This document shows positions 376-17,670 of a stretch of 21,742 nt of DNA, piece by piece (positions within the stretch are counted from its first letter, which is position 1; the number at the start of each line of letters is the position of its first letter). The position numbers and the translations under genes are program-made. The notes beneath the pieces are model-generated. The model searched no databases. It saw only the letters and a list, made by a program, of their open reading frames with translations, and was not told where the DNA came from. The stretch lies in contig MU646306.1 of assembly GCA_026770585.1 (NCBI GenBank), forward strand, positions 1,510,852-1,532,593. Reading direction: 5' to 3'. Source of the stretch: Baffinella frigidus. Its lineage: Eukaryota > Cryptophyceae > Cryptomonadales > Baffinellaceae.

Positions 376-3300
376 CTGGATGATCTTGGTGGAGTCAGAC
401 TCCTCGACCATGCTCGCCTCCCACCCCTGGCTCTTGGCATACCGCGTGTACACGTCCACCAGGTCCGCTGCCCAGATGTTCGCCTCGTCTCCCCCCGTGC
501 CTGCCAAAAGTCAACGTATGTCAACTTCACATGCACGTGTAGGACGGCCTTGAATGGCTCCAATGTTTGGCCCGTCGCCCACCCTTTTGCGGGAGAGCGA
601 ATTCAACGTACAGCAACAAGCTGTCTGCGCTTGAGAGTTGGGGGTTTGGATTTTTGGGTTTAGAGTGTAGGGTTTAAGGTTTAGGTTTTATTGTTCAGGG
701 TTAGGGGTTTGGGGTTTGGTGTGTGGGGTGTGGAGTTTGGGGTGTGAGTTTTGGGGTTCGGGGTTTGGGGTAGGGTTTTGGGTGTGGGGTTTTGGGTTTG
801 GGGGTTGGGGTTTGGGGTTTGGGGTTTGGGATCTGGGGGTTGGGGGTTGGGGTTTGGGGTACGGGGTTTTAGGGTTGCGGGTTGCGGGTTTAGGGTTTCG
901 GGTTTAGGGTTTCGGGGGGTAGGCACCAGCGCGGATCTCGAGCATGACGTTCTTCTCGTCCATCGGATCCTTGGGCAACATCAGCACCTAGGGTTTAGGG
1001 TTCAGGGTTCAGGGTTGAGGGTTTGCTCGGTTTAGGGTTCGCTTCCCCCCCAACACTATTCATTGTCTCATTGATCGGATCCTTGGGCATCAGCACCTGA
1101 GAGAGAGACCGTTAGTGCTACCGACCCGGCCCCGCCATGTATGCACCCCCACCAAGGCTGTGGTTGAGCAGGAACCTAGAGAGAGAGAGCTCGTGCGCAC
1201 TCTGCAGCCACACGTCAGCGCTCGCGCTCATCTGGATTCCTCTCTGTACTACCGTGGAATTCGCGATTTGATGGGTATCCCATCAAACCACACCACGTCA
1301 GCTGACGTGATCTCGTCACTTCATCACGTCAGCTGACGTGATCACGTCTCTTTATCACGTCAGCTGACGTGATCACGTCTCTTTATCACGTCAGCTGACG
1401 TGATGACCACCACCCGAAACCAGCCCTGGCAAGGGAAGCATTTCCATCGGTTCGGTCCGCGTGACGCGTTCCAACCAGGCGTGACAAGTGCAGTTGGTGA
1501 TCGTGTGGATTTCTCCAAAACATCCGTCAACCGTGGAGCAGCAAAGATCCCGGGATCACGAATTTGCTTCGCTCGAATAGACGAGGACAGAGGTAGGAGC
1601 CTGTTCGGTCCTCCTTGAGGATCAAACACTTGAAGTGGGTCGGGGTCAGGTCCCATGGTTCCGGGTTTCGGGTTCCGAGTTTCGGGTCCAATGGTGTAGG
1701 GCTTCTGCTGTACGGTTGAGGGTTTAGGGTTTAGGCCTAGGGTCTGGGGGTGAGGGTTCAGGTTTAGGGTTTAGGATTCAGGGGGTAGCTACGACCTTGA
1801 GGTCCTCCTCGATTGGGGTTTAGGGTTGAGGGTTTGGGGATTGGGGTTTAGGGTTGAGGGTTTAGGGTCGAATGGTTGGGACCTTGAGATCCTCCTCGAG
1901 GGCAGAGATCTGGTCCTCGAGGGCTTTCATCTCCTCCCGTGCCATCTCCCGCATCTCCTGGTCGTCCCCCGCCTGTCCACCATACGAAAATTACTACACA
2001 ATGGGGTCATATACGATAATTCTACACATTTGGGTCATATACGAAAATTACTACTCAAGTGCTTTGTTATCAGTAGTATGACCCAACTGTGTAGTAATTT
2101 TCGTGCAAAACGATCTCATCTCGCGCCATCTCCCGCATCTCCTGGTCATCCCCCGCCTGTCCACCATACGAAAATTACTACACAATTGGGCCGTATACGA
2201 AAATTACTACACACGTGCTGTATTATTACTAGTATGACCCAACCGTGTAGTAAAGTTCGTTCAAAACGATCTCCTCTCGCGCCACCTCCCGCATCTCCTG
2301 GGCGTCCCCCGGCTGTGTTTGGGGTTGAGGGATTCCATCCGGGGAAAACTGGTTTGTGTTTCAGAACCTGGCAACGACAATTACTGCACAAGTGCTGTAT
2401 TGTTACTAATATGACACGTCCGGGTAGTAATTATCGTGCAAAATTCTCGAGGGCTTTCATCTCCTCTCGCGGCATCTCCCTCATCTCCTGGTCGCCCCCC
2501 GCATGTTTGGGGTTTGGGGTTTAGGGTTCAGGGTTTAGGGTTGAGGGTTGAGGGTTCAGGGTCTAGTGTTTGGGGTTTAGGGTTCAGGGTTTAGAGATAA
2601 GGGATTAAGGTTTAGGGTTTAGGGTTTGGGGTTCATGGTTTAGGGTCTAGGGTTTAGGGATTAGTGTCTATTCTTTAGGGTTTAGGGTGAATTCGATCTC
2701 TCTAGGGTGTATGGTGCATCCGAGCGACTTCCACTCTTCGCTCACGCGCCAGCTTTTGCGCCAGCAAGGTACGACTAATTGGAGCGTGTGCCTGGTGAAA
2801 AGCCACGGATGAGTCATTGCCACTGTAAAAGATAGCGTGCTGTTTCGTCAAGAGGGGTGACTCTCTCTCGCGAGAGCACACGCGCGCGAGCCCTCTAAGC
2901 CATTGGAGCCATTGACCTAACTGTCTGCCAAACAGCCTGAAACACTCCACGTGGTGAAGTCGCTCCGGACTACACGGGACGGTATCCCCAGAGGAGAGGG
3001 CGTGCGGGGGTCGGTTCAGACCTCCTGGAACATGTCGGTGGCACCCTGGAGTTCATTGCTCGCCGCCTGCCACTCCGTGAACGCTCTGCCGCCCCGCGCA
3101 CCATTTCCTCAGCGCCACCATCATGGAAACATGGAAACATGGATGTAACTTGTGTTCCTTCGATAGACGAGAGCACTGCATCCTCGCGTCGTTGCTGGCG
3201 TCGCATCTTCCGCATCATTGGCTCAGTACCGATCTTCATTTGCTCAGTAACGAGCATCATTTCCTCAGTACCCGAGCATCGTTTCCACAGCGATAATTCT

Positions 3301-4473
3301 CGCGTCGTGTCAGGCAGGATCTGCCGCAGTGAGGGTGTGTGGCAGGTGATTGTGTTCCTTCGATAGGCGAGAGCACTGCATCCGCGCGTCGTTTCTGGCA
3401 CGGCGTATTCCGTAGCGCGGGTGTGGGACAGGGCGAGCGCGCGGGATGGGGGGCGTACGTATAGAGAGAGCAGCCCCTCACCATTTACCCCTTCGCTGTT
3501 GTACCAAGGATTCCACCAATGTCTACCTACTTCACATGGGTGTGCGCAGTCGTGCGGGATGAGGGGCGAACGTGGCGAGGACCAGCGCTGCATGCTGGCA
3601 TTGGGCATCAGAAAATTGGCTAAAACGGAGGTAACTAGCGGGATGGGGGTGTACGTGACGAGGGGCTCGATGGACGCGCGTTTCTTGGTGACCCGCAGAA
3701 GTTCCGCAGTGTTGGCCGCGAGCTGCATGCGGGCACCAGGACAGGTTACGCATGATGCGGGACCGATGGTTGGCATGTTGGTGGGAAGAAAAGGTAACGT
3801 AGTGTGAAGGGATTCCCCGCACGGGGGCAGATGCACAGGACCTCGTGAAGTCGCGCACTTCCAATGTTCATCAGCATCATCCCGGACATCAAGTCCAACA
3901 AGACAACCCACTAGCCCTCCCACGGGAATAATTTTGATGTGTTCCGCTTTCCAGGATTTTCACCAGGCTTGTAACGTCCCATGATGGCCCCCTGGTACAA
4001 ATTCGCGAATCCGGGGACGGATCGAATCACTTCACTTTGGAGGGCTGTGGTCTTGCTCGTGTGTTTGAACCAGCAAGTTGAGCAGCCTGGTCAGCTGATG
4101 GTGGCACATGAGACCACTAAGCCCGTGGAGACGGGAAAGAAGGCGCCATCTGCTGCACGGCGGGGACCTCGGGGTCGCTGAGCGAGTTGGTCATGTCGTC
4201 AAACTGGTCCTTGGTGCTCTGAAGCCGCCGGATCATCCCCTCGTCCGCCATCTTCAGCCCGAGAGCGCTCCTCGCCCCCCGCACCGGCGCGGTGGCCCCA
4301 GGGAACGCAAAGCCAGCGAAGTTTGGACGGGAGCCAGGCCCCTTCGCGAAGCACGCCTTGGACCGGGCCAGCGATTGCGTCGCTGGGATCCGGAGTGTCA
4401 TCGGAGCGAAGGCCGAAGACAAGCTCAGCAGCGCCGCACCTGCAGCGCAGAAGCGGGAATGCGAGCTCAGCAC
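376..4473 (-). CDS. prfA: Plastid-targeted peptide chain release factor 1 (5' six exons; gene runs off the left edge)
   Basis: Class I release factor that ends translation at UAA/UAG in the plastid. Exons on the minus strand: 4473-4168, 3722-3655, 3085-3022, 1972-1883, 987-927, 500-376. Each is bounded by AG and GT and the phases join without a gap, giving about 238 residues. The N-terminus has a hydrophobic stretch ending SAFAP, then a basic transit-like region, then [15 protein letters not shown] and LSDPE. Later blocks are [65 protein letters not shown] and [13 protein letters not shown]. These follow domain 1 and the GTGGDEA core start of plant/cyanobacterial RF1 in order and spacing. The GGYK and GGQ regions should lie left of position 1. 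Exon 1 uses a weak donor (GTCCCC). Introns carry telomere-like arrays and duplicated exon edges. A mitochondrial RF1 is the alternative, but the leader favours the plastid. Confidence 0.9.
630..925 (+). repeat. Degenerate TTTAGGG-type array in RF1 intron 5
   Basis: G-rich heptamer-like repeats (GGGTTTAGGG, GGGGTTTGGGG, GGGTTGCGG) fill nearly the whole intron between RF1 exons 5 and 6. On the transcribed sense strand this reads CCCTAAA/CCCCAAA. The array ends only two bases from the exon 5 donor. It is heavily mutated, unlike a live telomere. Confidence 0.85.
986..1043 (+). repeat. Short TTTAGGG-type tract abutting the RF1 exon 5 acceptor
   Basis: GGGTTTAGGGTTCAGGGTTCAG-type repeats lie immediately upstream (in gene sense) of RF1 exon 5. 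Read on the minus strand, the intron therefore ends in CCCTAAACCCTAG, and the acceptor AG comes from the repeat itself. Confidence 0.8.
1072..1099 (-). repeat. Partial duplicate of RF1 exon 5 acceptor and 5' edge
   Basis: On the minus strand a CTCTCTCAG acceptor is followed by GTGCTGATGCCCAAGG and ATCCGATC. These are the first bases of exon 5 (987-927) minus one TTG codon, after which similarity stops. It keeps a good acceptor and lies about 110 bp upstream of the real exon in gene sense. It cannot encode the rest of the exon. Confidence 0.8.
1294..1404. repeat. Four 31-bp tandem repeats, each centred on a perfect palindrome
   Basis: CACGTCAGCTGACGTG starts at 1294, 1325, 1356 and 1387, exactly 31 bp apart. 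The palindromic core (up to 20 bp, ATCACGTCAGCTGACGTGAT) contains CAGCTG flanked by inverted TGACGT half sites. It sits inside RF1 intron 4. Its role is unknown; it could bind dimeric bZIP/bHLH-type factors or form cruciforms. Confidence 0.9.
1660..1880 (+). repeat. Degenerate TTTAGGG-type array directly after the RF1 exon 4 donor
   Basis: Mixed GGGTTTAGGG, GGGTTGAGGG and GGGTTCAGG units run from 1660 to the exon 4 donor (AC at 1881-1882 on plus). A 20-bp piece at 1793-1812 interrupts the array and copies the 3' edge of exon 4. Confidence 0.85.
1793..1812 (-). repeat. Duplicate of RF1 exon 4 3' edge inside the telomere-like array
   Basis: Minus-strand TCGAGGAGGACCTCAAGGTC differs at one base from the exon 4 end (encoding LEEDLK plus the GT donor, about 1881-1900). 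It is embedded between GGGTTTAGGG-type repeats on both sides, so exon edge and repeat have been copied or mixed together. Confidence 0.8.
1983..2106. mobile_element. Family E inverted-repeat element, copy 1
   Basis: Starts ACGAAAATTACTACACA.TGGGTCATA and ends in the inverted complement TATGACCCAACTGTGTAGTAATTTTCGT, with an extra internal repeat of the left arm. There is no coding capacity. It lies a few bases upstream (gene sense) of the intact RF1 exon 4 acceptor. Confidence 0.75.
2113..2156 (-). repeat. Partial RF1 exon 4 copy 2, with acceptor
   Basis: Minus strand GGTGGACAG acceptor then codons for [15 protein letters not shown], nearly identical to exon 4 residues 1-15, then a break into family E sequence. 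It keeps the splice acceptor and reading frame but has no 3' half or donor. Confidence 0.85.
2166..2263. mobile_element. Family E inverted-repeat element, copy 2
   Basis: Arms ACGAAAATTACTACACAATTGGG and ATGACCCAACCGTGTAGTAAAGTTCGT flank a short centre. It is followed by the same CAAAACGATCTC junction as copy 1, so element and exon fragment were amplified as one unit. Confidence 0.75.
2266..2312 (-). repeat. Partial RF1 exon 4 copy 3
   Basis: Again encodes an [18 protein letters not shown] start behind a CAG, but it diverges more than copy 2 and the sequence beyond the acceptor is GGGTTTGGGG-like rather than family E. Confidence 0.75.
2372..2442. mobile_element. Family E inverted-repeat element, copy 3 (degenerate)
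   Basis: ACGACAATTACTGCACAAGTGCTGTATTGTTACTAATATGACAC...GTAGTAATTATCGTGCA resembles copies 1 and 2 with more substitutions. Confidence 0.65.
2446..2502 (-). repeat. Partial RF1 exon 4 copy 4, acceptor lost
   Basis: Matches about two thirds of exon 4 (through the KALE codons). At the acceptor position the CAG is changed to CAT, so it should be skipped. It abuts a GGGTTTGGGGTTTAGGG array on its other side. Confidence 0.8.
2503..2692 (+). repeat. Degenerate TTTAGGG-type array in RF1 intron 3
   Basis: About 190 bp of GGGTTTAGGG, GGGTTGAGGG and GGGTTCAGGG units. Same orientation as the other RF1 intron arrays (C-rich on the gene's sense strand). Confidence 0.85.
3152..3399. repeat. 48-bp direct repeat pair and short CTCAGTA repeats in RF1 intron 2
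   Basis: GTGTTCCTTCGATAG.CGAG through CGTCGTT.CTGGC occurs at 3152-3199 and 3352-3399, 200 bp apart. Between them is a roughly 26-bp repeat (CATCATT..CTCAGTA) about three times. The rest of the intron shows nothing I recognise. Confidence 0.75.
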
Positions 4474-4942
4474 AGCGTCTCATGATTATGCGGGGGCAGG
4501 AAATGCTGCCTGCGTGAAAACAGTACACGCTCCACTCGCTGTCTCGCATTCACAAAATCTCGACAAGGAGGGAAGGCAGGAGCATTTCTGGGCAGGGCGA
4601 GGCAGGCACAGCTCCTTGAGAGGAGTGAATCTCGGGGGGCGACGTACATATCGCGAGCGAGAGCGCCGCGGTGGTGCATGAGCGAGCGCCCATGGCCGGC
4701 CACCCTCAGAAACTGAAAGTTGACGGGGCAACTTTTGAGGCTGCACCCGAGCGCTTGGTTTGCCCTCGTCTCTCTCTCTGCCTTGCTCCCTGCCAGAACT
4801 GCTGTCCGTTGACACAGGGCGCAGTCGGGCTTGTATCGGACGGTGCGCGTAATCGCCCGGCCCAGAGAGCAATTTTCTGTTCTCGGCCGAAACTCGCAGA
4901 ACGCACCAGGTGGATTCGTGAGTTTTTTCGGTGAGGAGGGCA
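4474..4942. promoter_or_regulatory. Shared divergent promoter region between RF1 and the SH3-like gene
   Basis: The two start codons (4473 minus, 4943 plus) face away from each other across 469 bp, so both promoters must lie here unless upstream exons exist. I see no clear TATA box or other core element. This is inferred from layout only. Confidence 0.5.
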
Positions 4943-5831
4943 ATGGCCCCATCGCCGGAGGAGCAGAAGCTGGAGGCAGGCGTCATCGTCAAGCTGAAGG
5001 GGTTGGTCGGGGTGGCGAAGCACAACGGGCAGCATGGGGAGCTTGTGAACTTTGATGAGGCGAAGGGGCGGTGGGCGGTAAGAAGCCCCAACTCTCAGCC
5101 CCCATTTCTCAACATTTCGTTCCACCAGGCAGCACGCAGCGCATTTCGATCCTTGTCGGTGCCCATGTAGAATGAAACACTGATTGCGGGGTGGTTTTGG
5201 CGTTGAGATGTTTGCGGGCCGGGGCTCCTAACCTCATCGTTTCCGGGCAGGTAAAGCTTCAGAGCGATCACTCGATCCTCGGAGTCAAGCCGGTTTGCCC
5301 CCCAATCCAACCCCACTTCCCCCGCGACGACCTCGCCTGCCTGCACAATCTCGCGACACGCCGTGCTGACAGCTGCCGCCCACCCGAGTAGCGATGGTGG
5401 GCACGTGCCGATTTTCGACCCTGCAACTCTTCCCGGGTGCTCAACCACGCGCAAACGACGCCGAGCAGCGCTTCCCACTCGTCTGAAATGGTTGGCGCAT
5501 CGCAGGAAAACGTTTCATTCGTGCGGAAACCCGCACCGCAGCTACCAGACGGGGAGGACGAGGATGACGAGGAGGTCTGTCTGCCCCCCCCTGCATCCTT
5601 CGAACCTCCGCACGTGACAGCGCGTCCCATGCGCCCTGTCTTTCCGCGAACCTTTTCGATGCGTGACCGGAGCTGTACCCTGAGGGGGAGGGGGGGTCGC
5701 AGGGGATGCGGCTGAAGAAGCTGAAGGTCAACTTCGACCGGGTGATCAAGAAGTACAAACTGGGGTCGAGGAGCGATGAGATCGCAGACTTGCTCACGGG
5801 CGGAGTCGAGGGCGTCACCAAGGTCGTCTAG
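4943..5831 (+). CDS. Small SH3/KOW-like domain protein, four exons
   Basis: Exons 4943-5077, 5251-5292, 5506-5574 and 5703-5831 join in phase 0 at every border into about 124 residues. Residues 10-65 hold the pattern VIVKLKGLVGVAKHNGQHG, LVNFDEAKGRWAVKL, ILGVKPENVSFV. This is the motif 'NGxxGxVxxFxxxxGRWxVxL...lxVKPENl' found in small barrel modules, often next to ankyrin or MYND domains in algae and animals. An acidic linker (DGEDEDDEE) follows, then a basic helix (MRLKKLKVNFDRVIKKYKL) and a tail ending in GVTKVV. Donors are GTAAGA, GTTTGC and GTCTGT. The molecular role is unknown; a nucleic-acid or protein binding adaptor is a guess. The stop codon lies in the terminal repeat of a family F element. 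An alternative would be additional upstream exons. Confidence 0.75.
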
Positions 5832-5937
5832 CGCTGCCTCACTCTTCGCGTGGCTCGACCTGAAGGCTGTATATTCGCCTTTTTACTGGGTTGCTGCTCT
5901 TACATTGTTTGAAGTACGAGCCAGAATAAAACTCAGG
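5828..5937. mobile_element. Family F MITE-like element, copy 1 (supplies a stop codon)
   Basis: Starts CTAGCGCTGCCTCACT and ends CGAGCCAGAATAAAACTCAGG. It is the inverted-repeat family whose consensus arms are CTAGCTCTGCCTCAGTTTTATTCTGGC and complement. The TAG at 5829-5831, the stop of the upstream gene, is in its first bases. Confidence 0.7.
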
Positions 5938-5957
5938 TTCGTCACCAAGGTCTTCTA
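5938..5957 (+). repeat. Duplicate of the SH3-like gene's 3' coding edge
   Basis: TTCGTCACCAAGGTCTTCTAG repeats the last codons and stop (GCGTCACCAAGGTCGTCTAG, 5812-5831). It lies between two family F copies, so the element and adjoining exon edge were duplicated together. Confidence 0.75.
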
Positions 5958-6073
5958 GCGCTGCCTCACTTTTATTATGGCTCGTCATGAAGGCTTCGTG
6001 TTCGCCCCTTGACTGGATTGCTTCCCTCAAATGGTTTGAAGGACGCGCCAGAATAAAACTGAGGCAGAGCTAG
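5955..6073. mobile_element. Family F MITE-like element, copy 2
   Basis: CTAGCGCTGCCTCACTTTTATTATGGCTCGTC at the left and GACGCGCCAGAATAAAACTGAGGCAGAGCTAG at the right form imperfect terminal inverted repeats around an 119-bp element. Confidence 0.8.
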
Positions 6074-6276
6074 GTCGTGCTCTGAATCAGTCGGGTTGAC
6101 CGACTATTCCCAAATTGACGTTTTGGGCGTGCGGTCAAATCCGTCACCTTTGGAGCGGAAAAGCGCCCGGGCACACCGAGGTGGGCCTGAGTCAGACTGA
6201 GACTGAGCTAGAAGATCCGCGTGCAACGCGATCTCCTTCCGCCACCCCTCCAAAGTGTAGTTATGTCTCGTTGTCA

Positions 6277-6455
6277 TGCAAAAAGCTTTCGCCAGCGACC
6301 CCCTTATTTGGACGCGACTCCGTGCAAAATTTATAATGGAAAACAATTTAGGATTTTAAAAATCCTGAAATTGCTTTTAAAACTGTTTTAGAGCCTGTAA
6401 GTCCCTCGCCAGCGGACCACCTAGGGAGTCCGCTGGCGGAAGCTTTTGGCATTAG
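6277..6455. mobile_element. Family D MITE-like element, copy 1
   Basis: Terminal arms GCAAAAAGCTTTCGCCAGCG and CGCTGGCGGAAGCTTTTGGC flank an AT-rich centre with the inverted pair TTTAGGATTTT/AAAATCCTGAAA. A second copy in inverse orientation lies at 14034-14216 with high identity, showing that the family is mobile. No coding capacity. Confidence 0.85.
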
Positions 6456-6623
6456 TTGTATGAGGGCTCACTCATTTGGTGAGACCGGGCTCTTTCCGTT
6501 TCAAAGTAGAGAGATTTGAACCGCGAACCCTCAAATTGAGAATCATTGGTCAGCCCGACTGAGGCAGAGCTAGAAAGGCACTGTGTGAAAAGTTTGGCCG
6601 ACCCCCCGATGTTCCCCGGTGCG

Positions 6624-6729
6624 TATCCCTTAAGTGACCAGGCCTCCAAATTTGGGGGCCCAAGGTCCTAGGCTGGTCCTAGGGCCCTACGGTAGGGCGT
6701 ATGAGCCTACTGGCCACTTAAGGGCTATA
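6624..6729. mobile_element. Family C MITE-like element, copy 1
   Basis: TATCCCTTAAGTGACCAGG at the left, GGCCACTTAAGGGCTATA at the right, and an inner palindrome around CCTAGGGCCCTACGGTAGGGCGTATGAGCC. The outer TA is the likely target duplication, as in Tc1/mariner-type MITEs (inference). Confidence 0.85.
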
Positions 6730-6921
6730 TAGAGGGGCGTGCCGATTCCCCGTACACGCCTGGTACAAATCCACCAGACCAGACGAAACTTGAGTATGGA
6801 GGGCGGGTGGGCGCTGAGTGTGAGTCTGGTTCCCGAGGTGGGCCTATCTATCCCGGAGTGGGCCTCCTCACGCCATTCCCGAGACAGAGGCCTGACACAG
6901 ATCTTGCCCGTGAGCAGATAA

Positions 6922-8157
6922 CCTTCAAGGACATCGCGGACCGGTACGGGATGGAGATGGACGACGCGGTCTCGTTTCTCACGTGGATCCAGGTGCCCCA
7001 GCGTTCCTAACTCTGCTGGGTTTTATTCTTAGCTCTGCTGGGTTTTATTCTGCTTCCTAGCTCTGCTGGGTTTTATTCTTCCTCGTCCTAAAGGTTTTCT
7101 ATTCACCCTTTTGTACTGGACTTCTGCTCTTGAGTATACGTGTAAGGACGAGCCAGAATAAAACTCAGGCAGAGCTAGGTGTGCCCCCTGTTGGTGCCTT
7201 TGGAGCCGTGGGAGGCTTAGCAATCTCATCTCGGTACATAACAGATTCTGTGGTTTACAAAGACTTTCAATGGCGATTCATGCTATTTTAATCTTTGGTT
7301 TTATACCTGAAAAAGCAAATCCGCCCTTGCCTTCAGCGTTGGAAGCCCTAAGATACACAACAGATTATGTCATGTTCCGAAATGAAATCGGAGTGAGGAG
7401 CAGCGTGGACACTCCCACTCCGTCAGACACCAACAGCAAAGCGCTCGCTTTCTGCGCTCGAGCATCGCTATCCCTTAAGTGGCCAGTAGGCTCATACACC
7501 CTACCGTAGGGCCCTAGGACCAGCCTAGGACCTCAGGCCCCCAAATTTGGAGGCCTGGTCACTTAGAGGATAGATGCTCGCCCTAGCTCGCTGCCCCCTT
7601 GGCTGTGCCATCTCGGGCAACACTAACAGCGTGTGGTGCTCGAGTGCTTTGGTGCTTTTATTTACACTCACATCGAAGGCCACGCCCACCTCACTCTTGA
7701 GGAGTTGGGAACGGTCTACGGGTGAGCTCCCAGACCCACCTACGCAGGCGAAACTTTGGTTCCCATCTCATCTGTCCCCGCTCCTGGACAGTTCACCATC
7801 AGATCTCTTTTACTGATCCGGCACGAGGTCCGATTTGACCATTAACACCACCCAACTTTCCTGTGGGAACCTATCGTATCCAATCCGGACGTGGCCTCGG
7901 ACACGACCCACAAGGTGTGAGGCCAGCCTCAAGAATGTTTTTGCCCTCTTCTCTCTTTGCCGCTGCTCCCTCATGTCCAACAAGACCGCCCTCCCAAAAG
8001 AAGGAGTTCGTGGTACAATGCCGTGAACTGGTCCGCCTCGGGACAGACACGCCCGCCAGCAGCACGCGTGCTGCGATTGAACTGTTTGTATCTTGAGCAG
8101 GCGGCGGTGAATTTCAAGGAGCAGACGCTGGACCCCAACACGGAAGAGGCTGCTGAG
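6922..8157 (+). CDS. Unrecognised multi-exon gene, exon-like blocks only
   Basis: Three AG/GT-bounded blocks read like protein. 6922-6996 encodes ITFKDIADRYGMEMDD then AVSFLTWIQ, followed by GTGCCC. 7630-7721 follows CTAACAG and encodes RVVLECFGAFIYTHIEGHAH then LTLEELGTVYG, followed by GTGAGC. 8101-8157 encodes AAVNFKEQTLDPNTEEAAE, followed by GTGCCC. The first two resemble a winged-helix pattern (as in PCI or DDRGK-type proteins) and resemble each other, so one may be a duplicated exon. I could not join the phases into a full model, so start, stop and product are unknown. Family C and F elements lie between the blocks, as introns would allow. Confidence 0.35.
7011..7056. repeat. Tandem copies of the family F terminal repeat
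   Basis: CTCTGCTGGGTTTTATTCT occurs at about 7013 and 7033 directly before the third family F element, whose own left end repeats it again. This looks like local amplification of one terminus. Confidence 0.75.
7057..7178. mobile_element. Family F MITE-like element, copy 3 (most intact)
   Basis: CTAGCTCTGCTGGGTTTTATTCTTCCTCGTCCT at the left is matched by AGGACGAGCCAGAATAAAACTCAGGCAGAGCTAG at the right. A 122-bp non-coding element. Confidence 0.85.
7469..7572. mobile_element. Family C MITE-like element, copy 2
   Basis: TATCCCTTAAGTGGCCAGTAGG...CTGGTCACTTAGAGGATA, inverse in orientation to the copy at 6624 and sharing the CCCTACCGTAGGGCCCTAGGACC core. Confidence 0.85.
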
Positions 8158-9331: not shown

Positions 9332-9671
9332 TGTGTCCTTAATTTGAACCTACCCCTGTAGATGTCCTCGTCTGCTCACCATACCGTATGGGGGACTCCC
9401 CGCAAGTGTCTGACATGTGCGAACCGTGTCCGCACAGACTGCGAAACACATGGAGAGCAAGGACCCGGCGCTGTCGGCTCAGCTCCGGGATGCGGCGGGG
9501 AAGCCGAGGCGATAGCTGCCAGATCAAGGCTCTTGTGAGGATATAGGACTCACCCTTGGAGCCCTTTTCCCCTGAGGCGGGCCCATCCCGGACCCGGTCC
9601 TCACAGCTCTGCCACGCCGTTCCTGGTGGCGAAGGCATCACGATTCGGTTCCTTGGCTGTCACTTCTCGAG

Positions 9672-9792: not shown

Positions 9793-9860
9793 AAGGCATC
9801 TTGAAGCGATAGGGCCGTCGGCGCGAGTTGATGGGTGAGTTTGGACGCTACTCGGCCCGT

Positions 9861-9907: not shown

Positions 9908-9983
9908 AGGCGTGATGGGTTGTTTCCGTGGCCGTTACTTCTTGAATAAAGGCATCTCTCTCTGTGCGACGGCTGGCGAGGCA

Positions 9984-10310
9984 ACGCTGTACAGGGGTAC
10001 AGGGGTACCTAGTTCATAAGAAACTGCAACCCCCAATGGACCGCCATGCAGGGGTACCTCGGCTACAAGAACACCCTTGCTCGAGGGTCGGTCGGTCTGC
10101 GTTTTCTCAAAATAAGAAAACGGAGGGAGAATCCGGCCGGTGTCTTTTTCTTGAGATTAAAAAAACGCACGAAAGCGGGCGGTCCTCGTTTTATGTTTTC
10201 TCAAGGTTCAGAAAACGCAGGAAAGCGGTCGGTCCACGTTTTCTTGAAGTTAAGAAAACGGAGGGAAAATCCGGTCGGTGCTCGTAAGAAAGCGCCTCCT
10301 CGTAGGACCC
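9984..10310. mobile_element. Family A left end plus hairpin-array element (family H), copy 1
   Basis: A family A left end (TACAGGGGTACCTAG, 9994 on) leads into a second left end (GCAGGGGTACCTCGGCTAC, 10049). Four roughly 45-bp units follow (10104-10287). Each holds a small hairpin of the type GTTTTCTTnnnnnnAAGAAAAC followed by ggAGGGAGAATCCGGTCGGTG. An A-like right-hand half (CGTAGGACCCTACATTAGGCC) comes after. Confidence 0.75.
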
Positions 10311-10346
10311 TACATTAGGCCTCTGCATCGGAACCTACGGTGGACC

Positions 10347-10475
10347 TACAGGGGTGACTCGCTCATAAGAAACTACTCCCCCCCTCTAGGACCACCATAG
10401 GGCCCTAGGCATAGGACTGCTGCAGGGTCCTACATGTAGGGGGGTGCGGTTTCTTATGAGCGAGGTCCCCCTGTA
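10347..10475. mobile_element. Family A element, copy 6
   Basis: TACAGGGGTGACTCGCTCATAAG at the left and CTTATGAGCGAGGTCCCCCTGTA at the right with the CCACCATAGGGCCCTAGGCATAGG core. It is directly followed by another truncated A right end at about 10490-10508. Confidence 0.9.
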
Positions 10476-10544
10476 AGGGGGGGGGGGTCCTTTCTTATGA
10501 GAGAGGTGCCAAAATGTTGAAGTCCGATTTTTTTCTTGGCACAC

Positions 10545-10734
10545 ACAAAATCTGGTCGGTCGCTGTTTTCTTGATTCATTAGAAAACACGAGAATCCGGT
10601 CGGTCGACGTTTTCTTAGAAATAAGAAAACGGAGGGAGAATCCGGTTGGTGTCTTTTTCTTAAGAATAAGAAGACGCAGGGGTCAGATCCGGTGCGTTTT
10701 CTTGAGAAGCGCTTTTGTAACCGAGGTATCCCTT
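10545..10734. mobile_element. Hairpin-array element (family H), copy 2
   Basis: Units of about 45 bp with GTTTTCTTGATTCATTAGAAAAC, GTTTTCTTAGAAATAAGAAAAC and TTTTTCTTAAGAATAAGAAGAC hairpins, separated by GAATCCGGTCGGTCG-type spacers, ending in an A-like terminus (AACCGAGGTATCCCTTCA). Confidence 0.75.
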
Positions 10735-10899
10735 CACAGGGGTACCTCGCTCATAAGAAACCGAACCCTCCTAGGACCCTACAGTAGGACCATGCCTAGG
10801 GCCCTGAAACCGAACCCTCCTAGGACCCTACAGTAGGACCATGCCTAGGGCCCTATGGCGGTCCTACGGGCGGTTTCTTGTAAACGAGGTATCCCTGTA
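10735..10899. mobile_element. Family A element, copy 7, with internal 49-bp duplication
   Basis: CACAGGGGTACCTCGCTCAT at the left, ACGAGGTATCCCTGTA at the right. The block starting GAAACCGAACCCTCCTAGG occurs at 10757 and again at 10806, identical over 49 bp, so the duplication is recent. Confidence 0.9.
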
Positions 10900-11031
10900 G
10901 GGCCCGAGGCATAGGCCTACTGTAGGGTCCTAGGGGGGCGCGGTTTCTTGTGATCGAGGTACCCCTGTACCTCACTCAAAAGAAACCGCGCCCCCACCTA
11001 GGACCACCATAGGACCATAGGCATACATGTA
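10898..11031. mobile_element. Two abutting family A halves
   Basis: A right half (10898-10967, ending GATCGAGGTACCCCTGTA) is joined tail to head with a left half (TACCTCACTCAAAAGAAACC..., to about 11031). They share the central TGTAC and produce an inside-out copy. Confidence 0.8.
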
Positions 11032-11051
11032 GTGTGGGTATCTAGAGGCTC

Positions 11052-11247
11052 TACAGGGGTATCTGGGCTTTAAGAACACGGGTGCTCCAACATCGGCTGG
11101 TGTCAGTTTTCTTAAATTAGTACCGGAGGGTTGACTAAACGCAAGATTTAGTCAACCCTCTGGTACTCAATTAAATGGGGAGCCCAAACCTGCTCTGTGT
11201 GCTCAAGTTACATGTATGTGTTCTCAAATAGCCCAGATACCCCTGTA
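11052..11247. mobile_element. Family B element, copy 2
   Basis: TACAGGGGTATCTGGGCTTT at the left and AATAGCCCAGATACCCCTGTA at the right. Inside is the long hairpin GGAGGGTTGACTAAA...TTTAGTCAACCCTC. It is unlike copy 1 in lacking a family C insertion, so it defines the empty site. Confidence 0.9.
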
Positions 11248-11249
11248 GG

Positions 11250-11950
11250 GATCAAAGGGTTTGGGCATCTGAGGCGGGGGGGCGCCGCAGTGGCCGTAAC
11301 CTCGGTGGACGACGGTACTCAAATCCCAGGATGGTCCAGGGTTGTCCCAGGATTGGAGAGTGAGAATCAGAGTGAGAATCAGAGATTTCCCTAAGAGAGT
11401 GAGAATCAGAGATTTCCACATCTTTGATTCAGACTCTCCTAGGGCGACGTAATCACGTACGCCGAATCTGGATCTCTAGCTGTCTAGGATCTCAGAGTCA
11501 GGGGAAGGGGCGAGAGAGCAGTGAGGCCGAAGAATAAGCTGTACAGCTGTGTCGTTTGCGCTGGAGCTGCCCTTGGTCAATACTGAGCTTCAGAGCATTT
11601 CCTACCGCAGCAACACATGCTACGAGAGTATCTCGCTCAGAAGAAAGCGCCCCCACCAACCTGGGTTCTCCGTAGGGCCCGAGCACAGGCCTACTGTAAG
11701 TTCCTAAGGGGTGGCGGTTTCTGAAACCTGACACGCACGTGCACTGGAGGCCACCACGCATCTCACGGCGGTGTGAGTGCAGGCTAGCGAAAACGCGGCA
11801 CGGCGAGAGACAGCGCGATGGTCGAGAGCGGAGCGTGATTTGAAAGCTTTAACACTCCCATCGCGACGCAGGACGCCGCAAACATCACCCCCTGGATGCC
11901 TCTAGGGCATCGGGGCTGTGAGAAGCCCGACGAGTACCGGTCTCAGGTAT
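11250..11950. other. Downstream flank of eL41
   Basis: Apart from the degenerate family A copy and two close repeats of AGAGTGAGAATCAGAGATTTCC (about 11357-11416), I see no gene or element. The eL41 3' end must lie here, below 11951. Confidence 0.5.
11625..11735. mobile_element. Family A element, degenerate copy
   Basis: GAGAGTATCTCGCTCAGAAGAAAGCGCCC, then CCGTAGGGCCCGAGCACAGGCCTACTGTAAG and GGGGTGGCGGTTTCT; the right terminus is lost. Confidence 0.7.
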
Positions 11951-12028
11951 CTACTTGGACCTGGCCCTCATCTTCCTCCTCCGTCGCTGAAGGCGCCTCT
12001 GCCTCTTCTTCTTCCACTTCCACCTCAT
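11951..12028 (-). CDS. RPL41: 60S ribosomal protein eL41 (25 residues)
   Basis: A 78-base reading frame encodes MRWKWKKKRQRRL, then QRRRRK, then MRARSK and a TAG stop. Length (25 residues), overall basic composition and the position of nearly every residue match eL41, the smallest eukaryotic ribosomal protein, which forms a single helix bridging the two subunits. The ATG is preceded directly by GCCCACAG, a splice acceptor. A GTGAGC donor at 12158-12153 makes a likely 130-base 5'-UTR intron, common in ribosomal protein genes. It is too short for ordinary gene finders. The gene is divergent from LSm1. Amino acids 3 and 5 (Trp) differ from the commonest animal form. Confidence 0.94.
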   Translation of the reverse strand: MRWKWKKKRQRRLQRRRRKMRARSK

Positions 12029-13025
12029 CTGTGGGCGGGCGAGGGGGTTAGAACTGATGTGTCTTGCTTGCAGAGGATAAAGATAGCAGCTCGTGTCTTC
12101 CAGGGGCCGAGATCGAGGGCGGCTACAGTTGGCAGCCCTGCGCTTGCGGGCGGCTCACGAGGACGTCGGGTTTGCCAAAGGAAGGCAGAGTGGAGGGCAC
12201 CAGGCGCAGCCAGTCGGGGATAACTGAGGAATGTCTGGCTGCTCTGGGCCCCAGGTTGCGGACAGTGGAAGTGGGGCAAGGGGCGGGGTCTTGCCTTTGC
12301 GGTGGACTTCTTCCATGGGTTTGACTTATGCGCCATCCTGCGAAGGGGAGAGCTCGGTCAGAGACAGGGAGAGCGCCACCCAAGGATCCTGGCCCCAAGA
12401 GACAATCCCCACGTCATCCAACCGTGGGACCCAGACAGAAAACGAGCAAGCTCCGGCCAGCCCCCGCGGCGCCGCACGCCGACGCGCGTCCAACCGGCGG
12501 CGGACTTCGCCAAAGCCCCAGAGAGCGCGAGTGGTGAATTCTGGGCGCGCGGCGCGAGGCAGGAGGCGCCATCTCAAATCGTGGTCGGTGCATACCTGGA
12601 AGAGTCCTGCTCAAACAAAAAGTCGATCCTCCCCTTTCTCGTGCAATTTTCGGGAATGGCTCCAAGGGTCAAGAAAGGCCCCTGGGTGGGTATTCCGTGG
12701 CCGGCATTGGAGCCGTTGTCCGGCCTTGGAGCCCTTTTGTCAACTTTTGGCCGAGATCACCCGAGTCTCTTGGAAAAACCTGTCGAAATTGACTTTTGAA
12801 ATACCCCCCCAGGTGAGATGAAGGGCTCCAAGGGCAGAAATCCATCGCGGCGCTCTTCCTGCCGCTGCTCCCTGCTGGAGCTGAGAACCGACGGGGCGTG
12901 ACTCCCGCCGGCCCCTTGGTCGCCTCCGGACAGGGGACTGACCAGGCGGGTTCGTGCGGGCCGCGTATCGGTGTCGCAGCCGGTCCACTAAGGAAGAAAC
13001 TCGACGGGAGAGGCGGCTGGGCGGG
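12029..13025. promoter_or_regulatory. Divergent region between eL41 and LSm1
   Basis: About 1 kb, GC-rich, holding the eL41 5'-UTR intron (12029-12158) and presumably both promoters. Several open frames exist on both strands, but none shows a protein motif or splice logic that I recognise. Confidence 0.5.
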
Positions 13026-16000
13026 ATGCAAGGCAACGGCGGGGGCGGAGGGGGCGGGGGTTTCAATCAGGGGGGGGGGGGGCATTAGGCAAGGCGGCCC
13101 CGGCATGCACCAACAGCACCAGGGGATGCCTGGGGGCATGGGCGGCGGGCCGCAGCATGGGAATCACCAGCACGGCTCAGCGCCAGGTGGCGGGATGTTC
13201 CTGCCAGGCGTCGCCAGTCTTGTCGAGGACCTTGACAGTGCGTTTCCCAATCTATCCGTGCATACATGCCTTTTTAAGCCGTGTGCGTGCTGGTGTGAAT
13301 GCTTTGCGTGTCAACTTGCTTGCAGCTGTGTCCTGATCCTCTCTGATCGAGCCTCCTCCCGCCTGCCGCACAGAGCGGGTGCTGGTGACTCTCCGGGACG
13401 GGCGCCATTTCGTTGGCATGATGCGCTCCTTCGACCAATACGGTGCGCTCCTCGCCACCCATCCCCAACCCATCGCATAATTATCCCCCAGTTCTGCGGT
13501 GTCTCGATCCCCGCCAAGAGTCCCACCTGATCCGCAATGTTCCATTCTCAATGCTCGAGGCTCTGCGAACGGCAGCGTTGGGCTGTATGGAGGGATTCGC
13601 CAGCCCCTATATGTCCTTCGAGCACGCCTGACCGCCGGTGCCCTCACTCCCGACAGGCAATGTGATGCTGGAAGATACGTACGAGCGGGTAAGTCCCCTT
13701 CGTGCTCCCCTCACCACATGCAGCAACCTGACCCTATCCCCAGCTACCTGCATCACAAGCACACGCGCACACGCGCGCACGCTGCTAGCATGTTGGTTGT
13801 GGTCGCGGCGTGTGCCATGCGCCGCGCGGCCTTTTGCGGCTCCGGCAGCTCCTCCCCAAACGCCCTGCCTCAAGGTCCTTGAGGTTCTTGTAACTCCCAG
13901 TCTAGGAGGGCACTGGAACGTATCCTGCAGAACAGCCCTGCTTCCTTTCGCGCTTACCCTCACATCCTGCCCTCCCCCTCACCTTTCCTCACCCGCGCGT
14001 GCCATCAACACACGCCCCCTCGCCCCTTCATATACTAATGCCAAAAGCTTCCGCCAGCGGACCCCCTAGGTGGTCCGCTGGCGAGGGACTTACAGGCTCT
14101 AAAATGATTTTAAAAGCAATTTCAGGATTTTCAAAATCCTAAATTGTTTTCCATCACAAATTTTGTACGGAGTCGCGTCCAAATAAGGGATTCGCTGGCG
14201 AAAGCTTTTTGTATGAATACTCCGGCGGTTCCCCATTGATAACAAGTGGGGTGGGGCACAACACGTGGTAGGGAACGTACACGCATCCCCAAACCCTAAT
14301 TCCTACATTCCCTAAACACTGGCGGGGTGCAGCACGTGGTGGGCAACGTGTACGCAGACGAGCGCGTGGGCCTCTACGTCATTCGCGGGGAGAACCTTGT
14401 CCTGCTAGGCGAGCTGGTGCCCCCCCCCACCACCCACCCTCCCCACCCTCCCCACCCTCCCCACCCTCCCCACCCTCCGGACTGCTTCTAGCGCTCTGGC
14501 ATCTACAGCAGTCGCCCCCCCCTTGTTTTCCAGTGCCAACCTGAAACGATGCAGACACCTCGTGTAGGAGGACGACTGGTCCGTAGGGTGTGAGATGCAC
14601 TTGCTCGCAGCGCCAGAGTCGTTGCAGCAGGCGGTGCCGGTTTTCCTAGCATGTCATCAGCCCCGAACCGCAGATACATTGTGCAGCAGTTGCTTCCGAT
14701 TGTGCTCTGGACTCAAGTGGAATGGTTTCACTACGAATTTCCGCTTGAATTGGACTGAAGTGGAATGATTTCACTACGAATTGACGCATCTTGGCTGCAG
14801 AGTGTTTACGCAGCAGGTTTTATACCGGGACGGTCAGAAATTCAGGCAGGCATCCTACCGAGCAAAAAATCAGATTGAGCAACAGTCGTGGAACTGGCTG
14901 GCAGCCAGGATCGTGTTTAAGCTTTGGGGGAAGGGAGGTTCCAGAGGTACCTCGCTCGAAACACGCCGCCACCCCCCTAGGAGCACCAGAGGGCCCTAGG
15001 AATCCCTCAAGTGGCGAGGGGGTCAAATTCGACCCCCAAGAGGTCCAAGGCAGGTCATAGGGCCCTACGGTAGGGCGTATGAGCCTACTCGCCACTCAAG
15101 GGGTGTACATAGGCCACGTGTAGGGCCTAAAGGGCAGCGGTGTCTTAACGAGGTGCCCTACCCCGCGCGTCGCGCTCGGTAAATTTCTCGGTAAATGTCT
15201 TGGCGCGCCTCGCCAATTTCCCCCCCGGGCACCTCGGGCAACCTCCTCCTCACCTCGGACCTCCTCGGACCTGAAAGCTCACTCAGCTCGTCCCCAGGAG
15301 GCTGCGCAACTCCACCCTGAGGCGAGCTTATCACACGCCGTCCCTGAGGCGGGCCTATCACACGCCGTCCCTGAGGCGGGCCGCTTCAAGTGGTTGAGGT
15401 TCTTTTAACACCCACCATAGGCGGACACTGGAACTTACCCGCACGTGGCGCAGGACATGGGGAAAGAGCTGGGCAGACGGGCCATGTGCTTGGCCACAGG
15501 GACGGACACATTCCCCTGATATTTAAACCCAACCCCTGCACCCTATTAAGCCTTGCACGTGGCGCAGGACATGGGAAAAGAGCTGGGGCAGACTGCATTG
15601 CGGGCAAGTTCCAGTGTCTGCCTATGGTGGGAGTGAAAAAAAACTTCAAGGGTTACCCGCACGTGGAGTAGGACATGGAGAAAGAGCAGGGGCAGACCGA
15701 GTCAGTCTCGCCAGGCCCCAGGTTGAGGTTCAACCCGACCCCCTTCCTGCATGAGCGAGGTACCCCTGTAAAACCTGAACCCTCAACCCTGCGCGCAGGA
15801 CATGGAGAAAGAGCAGGGGCAGACCGCGCTGCGGGAAGTGCCGCTGGAGACAGTGCGCGCCCAGAAGGAGGCGGCCAAACAGGTCCCTACCCGCAATCCT
15901 GCCGTCAACCTGAACCGACCTTACGCACTCCGTAAATCCTACCCTGTTCTAAACGCTCAGCACTCGATCCTGAACCCTGACCTCTGAACTCTGAACACTC

Positions 16001-16039
16001 AACCCTGAACCCTGAAACCGTAAATCTGAACACTGGACC

Positions 16040-16085
<46 letters not shown>

Positions 16086-17670
16086 ACCCCGAACCCTGAA
16101 CCCTGAACCCTGAACCCTACGGGGGTACCTCGCTGATTGGAAAGCGCACCCCCCCCGAGGACCATCATAGGGCCCTAGACATAGGCCTACTGTATGGTCC
16201 TAGGGGGTGGCGCTTTCTTGTGAGCGAGGTACGCTCAACCCTGAACCGTAAATCGTAAACCCCGAACTGTGAACCCCAAACCCTAAACCCTGAACCCTGA
16301 ACACTCAACGCTGAACGGTAAACCGTAAACCCTGCAACCTGAACCCTGCACCCTGATCCCCAACACCCTAGACCCTGAAGTCTGAACCCTGAACCCTGAA
16401 CACTGAACACTGAACACAGAACACTGAATCCTAAAACACTAAACGCTCATCCCTAAACCCTAAACCCTAAACCCTAAACCCTAAACCCTGAACCCCTGTG
16501 TCACCCATATCGTGCACGGTTTAACACCGTATCCCTTTTAAGAGGCGAGTAGGCGCATCCCTTAACTGGCGAGGGGGTTTTAAAAGACCCACGCCAGGTC
16601 CTAAGCAGGTCCTAGGGCCTTACGGTAGGGCGTATGAGCCTACTCGCCACGTAAGAGGTATATACGCCCTACCGTAGGGCATACGCAGGAGCCTATGCCT
16701 TCTGTGTGGTCAATTTTCCCCCCATCGCCACATGAGGGATAGTGCACGCGTATGCCTACCTGAGGTGTGGATGCTGCCCTGTACACTTGCATTAGCCCAC
16801 GCTCACGAGGGATTTGCAGGTGCAGAGTTGAGTGTTCTTCCGGTGCCTGCCCCCTCTCTCCCGCGGCGCCAGGGGCTTGTGTGTGCGAGGAGAAGATCAC
16901 TCCCAAGAGCGCCGCACACCAGGGCCAGTTGACTGTTCGTGTGTGGTCGTGATGTCTAAACCAATCCTACGCCATAAGCCCTAAGCCGTCAACCCTAAAT
17001 AAACCCTAAACCCTAAACCCTAAACCCTAAACCCTAAACCTTCTTCCCTAACACTTAAGGGATAACCTGAACCTCGACCTAAACCCTGAACCAGGAGCGA
17101 GCGGACGACGACATGCTGCGAAAGAAGCTGTCGCAGCAGGTGCAAACCCACCCCTTTCAAACCGACCCCCAGCCTGCATCGGGATCGGTTTGAACCGGGG
17201 TCGGTTTGAACCCCGTTTCTGAAACCCTGGTTGCATGTATAAGGGTTACTCGAACATAAGGTCTCGAACCGCTCCCGCACCGCTCGTAGGGTGGTCCTAG
17301 GCCCAAAGGCATAGGCCTACTGTAGGCTCTTACGGCGTGGCGGACCTGATGAAGTTGTCGCAGCAGATTCAACCCCATCCCTTTCAAACCGACCCCGTTC
17401 CTGAACCATCGGTTGCATGTACAGGGGTACCTCGCTCATACGAAACAGCCCCCCCCCTTGTACCGTCATAGGGCCCTGGGCATAGGCCTGCTGCAGGATC
17501 TTATGGGTTGGCGCTTTCTGATTCTTATGAGCGAGGTACCCCTGTGCATTGCGCCCTGTGCCTGAGGCCTGCAAGTGCCGCATGATTCTCGATGTCGCGC
17601 CTGCCCTGACGCATTCCCCCCCATCCACGCTGTGCAGGCGCTGGGGTTGGGGTTCGAAGACTGCCTCTGA
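13026..17670 (+). CDS. LSM1: U6 snRNA-associated Sm-like protein LSm1, seven exons
   Basis: LSm1 belongs to the cytoplasmic LSm1-7 ring that binds deadenylated mRNA and promotes decapping. Exons: 13026-13237, 13374-13442, 13657-13688, 14333-14416, 15799-15882, 17095-17139, 17638-17670; phases agree. The N-terminus is Gly/Gln/His-rich, then FLPGVASLVEDLDKRVL, VTLRDGRHFVGMMRSFDQYG, NVMLEDTYER (Sm1) and GLYVIRGENLVLLGEL (Sm2, with the IRGEN RNA-binding loop). The C-terminal helix region is DMEKEQGQTALREVPLETV, ERADDDMLRKKLSQQ, ending GLGFEDCL. Sm1 and Sm2 are full length; at about 185 residues it is longer than the human protein because of the Gly-rich leader. From the first ATG the frame is broken by one extra G in a 13-G run (13070-13082). 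Either that is a sequencing length error or translation starts later. Intron 5 is full of CCCTAAA-like repeats. Confidence 0.93.
13070..13082 (+). repeat. Poly-G run that breaks the LSm1 N-terminal frame
   Basis: A 13-base G run in the Gly-rich leader. With this length the frame from 13026 hits CAT TAG. With one G fewer it reads on into GIRQGGPGMHQQHQG and the Sm domain. Confidence 0.85.
13877..13926. repeat. Family G terminal arm in LSm1 intron 3
   Basis: CCTTGAGGTTCTTGTAACTCCCAG...GGGCACTGGAACGT matches the left arm of the element at 15392, but no partner arm is present. Confidence 0.65.
14034..14216. mobile_element. Family D MITE-like element, copy 2
   Basis: CTAATGCCAAAAGCTTCCGCC at the left and GGCGAAAGCTTTTTGTATG at the right. 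It is the inverse of the copy at 6277-6455 with the same CCACCTAGG and AATTTCAGGATTTT cores. Lies wholly inside LSm1 intron 3. Confidence 0.88.
14419..14478. repeat. CCCTCCCCAC microsatellite next to the LSm1 exon 4 donor
   Basis: A run of C, then about five 10-base CCCTCCCCAC units starting two bases after the GT donor at 14417. The G-rich strand could form a quadruplex. The sense RNA is C-rich, like the telomere-like intron arrays. Confidence 0.85.
14943..15165. mobile_element. Family A element interrupted by family C (15001-15107)
   Basis: A left arm (GAGGTACCTCGCTCGAAAC, CACCAGAGGGCCCTAGG) stops at 15000. A family C copy follows (ATCCCTCAAGTGGCGAG to CTCGCCACTCAAGGGGTGTA). The A sequence then resumes with CATAGGCCACGTGTAGGGCC and ends ACGAGGTGCCCT. 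The break is inside the conserved CCCTAGG|CATAGGCC centre. Confidence 0.88.
15317..15382. repeat. About 27-bp tandem repeat, 2.5 copies
   Basis: CTGAGGCGGGCCTATCACAC followed by GCCGTCC recurs at 15317, 15343 and 15371 in LSm1 intron 4. Confidence 0.85.
15444..15490 (+). repeat. Partial LSm1 exon 5, copy 1
   Basis: GCACGTGGCGCAG acceptor then GACATGGGGAAAGAGCTGGG; about 25-30 bases of exon similarity, one base short of the exon frame near its end. Confidence 0.8.
15558..15603 (+). repeat. Partial LSm1 exon 5, copy 2
   Basis: GCACGTGGCGCAG acceptor then codons for DMGKELGQTALR, the first 12 residues of exon 5 with two changes. It then breaks into the family G right arm. No donor. Confidence 0.85.
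15660..15705 (+). repeat. Partial LSm1 exon 5, copy 3
   Basis: CACGTGGAGTAG then GACATGGAGAAAGAGCAGGG and GCAGACCG, identical to exon 5 for 28 bases before diverging. The acceptor is TAG, still usable in principle. Confidence 0.85.
15754..15773. mobile_element. Solo family A right terminus
   Basis: GAGCGAGGTACCCCTGTA with no left arm, followed at once by AAAACCTGAACCCTCAACCC, that is, joined to a telomere-like tract just before the real exon 5. Confidence 0.75.
15945..16117 (-). repeat. Degenerate CCCTAAA-type array in LSm1 intron 5, part 1
   Basis: Units CCCTGAA and CCCTCAA predominate, with a perfect block of about seven CCCTCAA heptamers at 16037-16088 and CCCTGAA runs after it. G-rich strand is minus; C-rich strand is gene sense. 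Confidence 0.9.
16120..16233. mobile_element. Family A element embedded in the telomere-like array
   Basis: ACGGGGGTACCTCGCTGATTGG at the left and CTTGTGAGCGAGGTACGC at the right, with the standard CATAGGGCCCTAGACATAGG core. CCCTGAACCC-type repeats lie directly on both sides, so it inserted into the array or the array grew around it. Confidence 0.9.
16234..16496 (-). repeat. Degenerate CCCTAAA-type array in LSm1 intron 5, part 2
   Basis: Mixed CCCTGAA, CCGTAAA, CACTGAA units finish in a nearly perfect run of six CCCTAAA heptamers (16451-16492). Confidence 0.9.
16528..16664. mobile_element. Family C element, copy 5, preceded by a partial left arm
   Basis: A stray left arm (GTATCCCTTTTAAGAGGCGAGTAGG, 16528-16552) is followed by a full copy (GCATCCCTTAACTGGCGAGG to CTCGCCACGTAAGAGGTATA). 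A further inner palindrome, CGCCCTACCGTAGGGC, follows at about 16666. Confidence 0.85.
16972..17093 (-). repeat. CCCTAAA array reaching the LSm1 exon 6 acceptor
   Basis: Perfect CCCTAAA units at about 17001-17039, then AACCTGAACCTCG and AACCCTGAACCAG. The last repeat unit becomes the acceptor CCAG|GAGCGAG of exon 6. A family C right end (ACACTTAAGGGATAA, about 17051) is embedded. Confidence 0.88.
17240..17345. mobile_element. Family A element, degenerate copy in LSm1 intron 6
   Basis: GGTTACTCGAACATAAGG, GTAGGGTGGTCCTAGGCCCAAAGGCATAGGCCTACTGTAGGCTC and GCGTGGCGG keep the order of family A blocks; termini are lost. Confidence 0.7.
17342..17395 (+). repeat. Partial duplicate of LSm1 exon 6 3' edge and following intron
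   Basis: GACCTGATGAAGTTGTCGCAGCAG then AT...CAACCCCATCCCTTTCAAACCGACCCC repeats 17113-17168 (ATGCTG...TCGCAGCAG, GTGCAAACCCACCCC). The donor GT has become AT, so this copy cannot splice as exon 6 does. Confidence 0.85.
17420..17546. mobile_element. Family A element, copy in LSm1 intron 6
   Basis: TACAGGGGTACCTCGCTCATAC and TTCTTATGAGCGAGGTACCCCTG flank the GTCATAGGGCCCTGGGCATAGGCCTGCTGCAGG core; nearly intact. Confidence 0.9.

Follow-up and report, generated by a model that had tools for sequence, protein, structure and literature searches.

The window analyzed here, a 21,742-nucleotide stretch (C4:1510852-1532593) of the 382-Mb, 1364-contig assembly of Baffinella frigidus, is very probably nuclear DNA of this cryptophyte. 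It contains three genes: a plastid-type RF1 lies on the minus strand, and the other two, an SH3-like gene and LSm1, lie on the plus strand. RF1, whose exons were placed by tblastn with cryptophyte-type RF1 proteins, has six exons inside the window and a PCRF domain (E = 5.5e-34). In the final exon map, two RF1 edges are slightly displaced from the likely splice site (3081 by 4 nt and 3654 by 1 nt), and the local direct-repeat scan of the window found no duplication at either. RF1 intron DNA also holds a 31-bp minisatellite of palindromes (TCACGTCAGCTGACGTGA) at 1291-1407. The LSm1 exons match a partial B. frigidus protein, P0007, at 97% identity over 66% of the query in a protein search. A stretch of 13 G at 13070-13082, either a variant or a sequencing error, interrupts an upstream reading frame; it lies just 5' of the start assigned here to LSm1. 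The window opens with a poly-G run (positions 1-33), and its right end, outside the identified genes, is a long degenerate CCCTAAA-type field (20156-21742).

The structure of the SH3-like gene was settled by P0069, a transcript-derived protein of 191 aa with an MMETSP transcript name (sources given as jgi, mmetsp and eukprot). This protein equals the joined window exons letter for letter, with exon 4 ending at 5822 and further exons at 6918-6992, 8101-8157 and 9438-9515. The copied point in this gene had been taken for a stop codon at 5829-5831. That assignment was wrong, as the point is a 5' splice site and the protein runs into three further exons. A guessed exon at 7679-7721 is absent from P0069.

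Local copies of exon edges

To catalog local copies, we searched the window for direct repeats no more than 600 bp apart, masking telomere-like tracts and using three shuffles of the sequence as a control. The scan returned 88 local direct repeats, 7 of them due to the poly-G run at 1-33, versus none in each of the three shuffles. The exon-edge copies are therefore real and not chance matches. All of the partial copies originally reported, next to RF1 exons 4 and 5, next to LSm1 exons 5 and 6, and at the pair 5812-5831/5938-5957, were recovered, and one further copy was found at LSm1 exon 4. Coordinates of the exons, copies, tracts and elements are collected in Table 1.

Table 1. Exons, exon-edge copies, telomere-like tracts and inverted-repeat elements in the window
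Feature	Position	Strand	Basis
RF1 exon 5	927-987	-	tblastn, PCRF domain
Telomere-like tract (CCCTAAA on sense) between RF1 exon 5 and its copy	994-1033	-	tract list
Copy of RF1 exon 5 5' edge; CAG acceptor kept; starts at splice site	1072-1099	-	repeat scan
Copy of RF1 exon 4 3' edge, reaching 3 nt past donor	1793-1812	-	
Telomere-like tract between RF1 exon 4 and its 3'-edge copy	1819-1864		
RF1 exon 4	1883-1972	-	
Inverted-repeat element E (TACGAAAATTACTACAC...GTAGTAATTTTCGT) between RF1 exon 4 copies	1982-2110		
Copy 1 of RF1 exon 4 5' edge	2113-2160	-	
Copy 2 of RF1 exon 4 5' edge	2269-2316	-	
Copy 3 of RF1 exon 4 5' edge, 61 nt, 90% identical	2446-2506	-	
Further RF1 exon	3654-3722	-	
SH3-like exon 4, ending AAG/GTCGTCTAG (donor, not stop)	5703-5822	+	identity with P0069
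SH3-like tandem duplication unit 1: 10 exon and 115 intron bases with element D	5813-5937	+	
SH3-like tandem duplication unit 2, 81% identical	5940-6064	+	
Element D, TIR CTAGCKCTGCC...GGCAGAGCTAG	5955-6074	+	
Element C (second copy 14034-14216, inverted)	6274-6456	+	
Second D copy, next SH3-like intron, without SH3 exon sequence	7057-7184		
Copy of LSm1 exon 4 5' edge, 12 nt across acceptor; telomere-like spacer	14250-14285	+	
LSm1 exon 4	14333-14416	+	
Element F, arms 15397-15443/15599-15645, enclosing LSm1 exon 5 copies 1 and 2	15397-15645		
Copy 1 of LSm1 exon 5 5' edge	15441-15473	+	
Copy 2 of LSm1 exon 5 5' edge	15555-15604	+	
Copy 3 of LSm1 exon 5 5' edge; 30 nt identical to exon	15659-15699	+	
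LSm1 exon 5	15799-15882	+	
LSm1 exon 6	17095-17139	+	
Tandem duplication unit 1: LSm1 exon 6 3' edge, intron start and truncated element A	17124-17350	+	
Tandem duplication unit 2 at LSm1 exon 6; donor decayed to AT	17351-17545	+	

The copies take several forms. Plain tandem duplications are found in the SH3-like gene (127 bp), at RF1 exon 4 (a 156-bp unit, 2011-2316), at LSm1 exon 6 and, among CCT chaperonin genes, on contig C6 (79 bp). The 5812-5831/5938-5957 pair is one end of the 127-bp duplication in the SH3-like gene, which contains a terminal inverted repeat (TIR) element. A telomere-type repeat flanked by a direct duplication, as expected of telomeric sequence inserted at a break, is present at the 3' edge of RF1 exon 4 and at LSm1 exon 4; RF1 exon 5, which has a single upstream copy, also shows this arrangement, with a mixed spacer. 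The spacers between the three copies of LSm1 exon 5 appear unrelated, which sets this exon apart from the tandem duplications.

At every copied edge inspected in the window, in the CCT genes and in the HSP70 genes, the copy of an exon start lies upstream of the exon and the copy of an exon end lies downstream of it. Most copies have diverged from the source sequence by several percent to about 20%, and 8 of 11 retain the splice dinucleotide (AG or GT). In a by-eye count, differences between copy and exon lean to third codon positions. The edge copies on C1202 (L030) and C94 (merged L033/L039/L035) differ from the exon, over the matching stretch and by eye, only at such positions (5 of 5 and 4 of 4), as if both sides had once been coding.

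Frequency and breakpoints of copied splice edges

Local copies are present at 7 of the 34 splice edges in the three genes of the window. As independent samples, we also examined CCT chaperonin and HSP70 exons, which were taken from a family search and whose splice sites were placed by hand. The CCT sample covers 10 of 10 matches and 19 edges (one unclear end was dropped), of which 5 are copied. For HSP70, regions around 12 of 17 matches yielded 10 exons and 16 clear edges, 4 of them copied. Two HSP70 exons whose start is unplaced (C1133 and C190) have upstream copies of the first exon part as well. In the HSP70 region at C226 185847-186847 (L086), the first part of an 87-nt exon (186252-186338) is copied twice upstream, and the last part of this exon is matched at three places downstream. 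Copying is a general feature of the genes sampled and recurs in every gene family sampled. The same pattern at CCT and HSP70 exons supports the proposal of a process shared across several genes.

According to the original prediction, the copies begin or end at a splice site or stop codon. We measured each breakpoint as the number of intron bases in the best ungapped alignment at the copied edge, which gave 3 (edge 987), 3 (1883), 49 (1972), 115 (5822), 12 (14333), 2 (15799) and 30 (17139). A boundary at the splice site (within 3 nt) therefore holds for only three of the seven edges, because the other four alignments cross it by 12 or more bases. The CCT copy on C1202 likewise ends within 3 nt of a splice site.

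The enrichment test suggested with that prediction was then applied to the edges of the window and of the CCT and HSP70 exons. On the final map of the window, the 7 copied edges of 34 compare with 6.3 expected from random intron positions (P = 0.44), or with 4.1 when exon-touching copies are left out (P = 0.10). For introns of at least 400 nt, 7 of 24 edges are copied versus 4.9 expected (P = 0.20), and versus 3.1 with exon-touching copies left out (P = 0.03). Earlier exon maps of the window gave 5, 6 and 7 copied edges out of 32, and a stricter low-complexity mask, minus one hand-added gapped pair, gave 6 out of 34. At CCT exons, where non-coding cover is 11-13%, the main threshold gives P = 0.06-0.09, and tightening either the score or the distance gives P = 0.02-0.05. 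At HSP70 exons, non-coding cover is 21-29% and P is 0.73. Pooled, 16 of 69 edges are copied versus about 13 expected from non-coding cover, with P ranging from 0.02 to 0.73 by set and version.

The amount of repeated non-coding DNA in this genome would be enough to account for the rate of copied edges. Non-coding bases inside a local direct repeat make up 18.5% of window introns, 13% of the DNA around CCT exons and 29% of that around HSP70 exons; the same share is 9-38% in the five of 20 random genome stretches that were readable at least in part. With shares of this size, 16 copied edges of 69 need no edge targeting. In addition, exon copies decay more slowly on one side, which makes them easier to see. 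Splice edges are not clearly preferred over other non-coding DNA, with some versions leaning to edges, and the idea of a process specific to exon edges is left unsupported.

Inverted-repeat elements and telomere-like tracts

Most copies had been described as abutting an inverted-repeat element or a TTTAGGG-type tract, and this description was borne out. In this window, an inverted repeat or telomere-like tract lies within 50 bp of 6 of 7 copied edges versus 2 of 27 uncopied edges (Fisher P = 1.4e-4). For window introns of at least 400 nt, the counts are 6 of 7 versus 2 of 17 (P = 0.0013). The seventh copied edge, 5822, is 5 bp from element D, whose diverged left end was missed by the annotation. 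Within this one window, the link of copied edges to inverted repeats and tracts is sound.

Elements C and D make ordinary target duplications of 4 and 5 bp, respectively. A first look at the genome gave 296 candidates for element C, of which 40 were scored; all eight copies examined have a 4-bp target duplication, as judged by eye, and no AGGT-type motif is common to these eight. Element D has terminal inverted repeats (CTAGC...GCTAG) and gave 372 first-look candidates, of which 40 were again scored. At least 4 of the 5 bp of the target duplication agree in 21 of 39 copies, versus 6.6% for shuffled partners. The right terminal repeat of element D carries AATAAA.

In the SH3-like gene, element D at 5955-6074 and the truncated copy at 5828-5937 are flanked together by a 5-bp direct repeat, GTCGT. 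Intron 4 of this gene is 1095 nt long, and element D occupies its first part only. One cause put forward for the copies was an element that carries flanking exon sequence along with it. Among the 40 scored of the 372 D candidates, the 15-nt SH3 exon piece is whole only at the window's two places; transport of this kind is not supported.

Element D lies directly past a donor in two genes, by 5 bp at SH3-like exon 4 and by 2 bp at CCT exon L032. Its insertion site reads AGGT or ACCT in 11 of 39 copies versus a background of 8% (P = 2e-4). This preference is weakened by the query itself, which included the AGGT flank. As a candidate introner family with an AGGT target, D gave 11 of 22 at first and 4 of 24 in a bias-free subset (P = 0.13), and the candidate was rejected. 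When the flanks of six D copies were joined, two candidate exons that end at D emerged: a WD40-like one (Pfam E = 0.15, with PDB matches reaching 1.4e-9 when repeats are summed) and a BRWD1-like one (Pfam E = 0.00046, below the Pfam cut-off).

Telomere-like blocks in gene regions are strongly oriented: across eight regions (the RF1 and LSm1 introns and L030-L039), CCCTAAA lies on the sense strand in 45 versus 3, in both gene orientations. The SH3-like region has one short telomere-like block only, and this block is G-rich. Sense-strand CCCTAAA tracts could be a source of AG and branch-point-like signals.

Origin of the exon-edge copies

We propose that the copies are probably remnants of frequent, sequence-unspecific small local duplication through template switching or the repair of breaks, and that splicing and selection have spared the duplications at exon edges. 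Under this model, when a fork stalls or a break occurs within an intron or at its border, repair would duplicate 20-120 bp of flank. The duplicated flank would either form a head-to-tail repeat together with a neighbouring inverted-repeat element or bracket inserted filler, which may consist of telomere-like CCCTAAA sequence or of element pieces. Inverted repeats and G-rich tracts probably promote duplication through folding. An event inside an exon would break the gene and hence be lost. After an event across an exon edge, the gene would keep an intact exon with a functional splice site, so that the duplication would be tolerated, and the spare copy would turn into intron and decay. The upstream copies of exon starts, the downstream copies of exon ends and the seeming aim at splice sites would then arise because only duplications that spare a whole exon survive. 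We infer the repair route, the role of folding and the action of selection.

Template switching (MMBIR/FoSTeS) and microhomology-mediated tandem duplication leave short homologies at junctions and can copy one small region several times over. The copies described here resemble the products of MMBIR/FoSTeS on both counts, with junctions read from sequence alone. Two of the tandem duplications share 3-4 bp at their junctions by eye (GAGG at SH3 and GCG at LSm1 exon 6), which fits the earlier suggestion of microhomology-driven repair or template switching, as do the copies separated by filler. Leaning against general duplication are one of the four window versions (P = 0.03) and the CCT values (P = 0.02-0.09).

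These CCT edges (5 of 19) would also fit breaks or insertions directed at splice sites, whether by AGGT-targeting elements or by breaks linked to transcription or splicing, and the copies that end within 3 nt of a splice site and the AGGT or ACCT at D insertion sites point the same way. We nevertheless consider splice-site direction rather unlikely, given that neither the window (7/34) nor the HSP70 edges (4/16) are enriched, that the D preference falls away without query-flank matches and that the C copies lack a common AGGT-type motif. Another possibility is that telomere-like sequence is added at staggered gene breaks with 12-40 bp flank duplications, lengthening introns and now and then making new ones. 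Here intron growth and occasional gain would follow because sense CCCTAAA brings branch-point-like and AG signals; we regard this account as unlikely. That copies flank or include elements, and that D sits so close to the donor at SH3-like exon 4 and CCT L032, could instead mean that inverted-repeat elements generated the copies on insertion, as long target-site duplications. This is quite improbable, as the 4- and 5-bp duplications of C and D leave no rule of 20-60 bp duplications, and the telomere-like spacers at the RF1 exon 4 3' edge and LSm1 exon 4 hold no such element.

Intron gain by duplication of a proto-splice site, in which the intron start resembles the downstream exon start, is a very unlikely source of the copies. 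Two of 26 introns, in CCT on C94 (311 nt) and HSP70 on C62 (241 nt), do agree with the start of the downstream exon in 7 of 12 bases once the first two are set aside (a chance of 0.5% for each), and their first three codons equal those of that exon (VIP and VFE). However, these are two of the nine CCT and HSP70 introns, and in the window the best of the 17 introns agrees in only 6 of 12. Such gain also needs a copy at the opposite intron end, whereas window copies stay on the side of the copied edge. The C62 intron (294995-295235, L088) is telomere-like, begins with the codons VFER against VFEG in the downstream exon, and is a candidate intron gain. An assembly artefact might be suspected in a repeat-rich genome, in a window that begins with poly-G, yet it is barely credible for copies that are mostly diverged by several to about 20% and for a pattern present on several contigs. 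Overall, the pattern is more plausibly general local duplication, filtered by selection, than a new system directed at splice sites.

Parts of this pattern have counterparts in known systems. Telomeric repeats inserted at double-strand breaks are accompanied by flank duplication at 4.6% of rodent and 16% of primate loci (PMC2246262), and telomeric repeat insertions in the horse at 4.5% of loci (PMC7215372). Like these interstitial telomeric sequences, the Baffinella tracts are internal telomere-like repeats, some with a flank duplication as at a staggered break. Unlike them, the Baffinella tracts are degenerate and fill introns of several genes, and their duplications reach 20-42 bp across splice sites. 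In Drosophila, intron sliding and tandem duplication at exon borders (Lehmann et al. 2010, PMC2891723) likewise involve small duplications that touch coding sequence and splice signals. There, new intron positions arise, whereas the outcome here is mostly longer existing introns with decayed edge copies. With the TIR transposons known as introners (Gozashti et al. 2022, PMC9860276), element D shares its TIRs, its 5-bp target duplications, its number of candidates and its place past a donor in two genes, but it does not span the whole SH3-like intron, and its AGGT preference is not established. The string "Crypto" is absent from the main text of that introner survey. Among the papers listed by searches of one open-access library, no title or abstract start dealt with exon-edge copies or intronic telomere-like tracts in cryptophytes. 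Searches of viral contigs (three DNA patterns and one protein scan) and a phage search returned no relatives.

Should roughly every fourth or fifth splice edge carry a copy, as among the 69 sampled, this genome would be unusually suited to watching intron growth, because it preserves, at different ages, the path from duplication via competition between splice sites to decay. It would also allow a direct test of intron building by repair errors, telomere-like DNA and small transposons. For gene finders, the copies are a warning that decoy exon edges are common here. P0007, the NCBI LSm1 model, is an example: by eye, its tail is a read-through into the intron after LSm1 exon 5.
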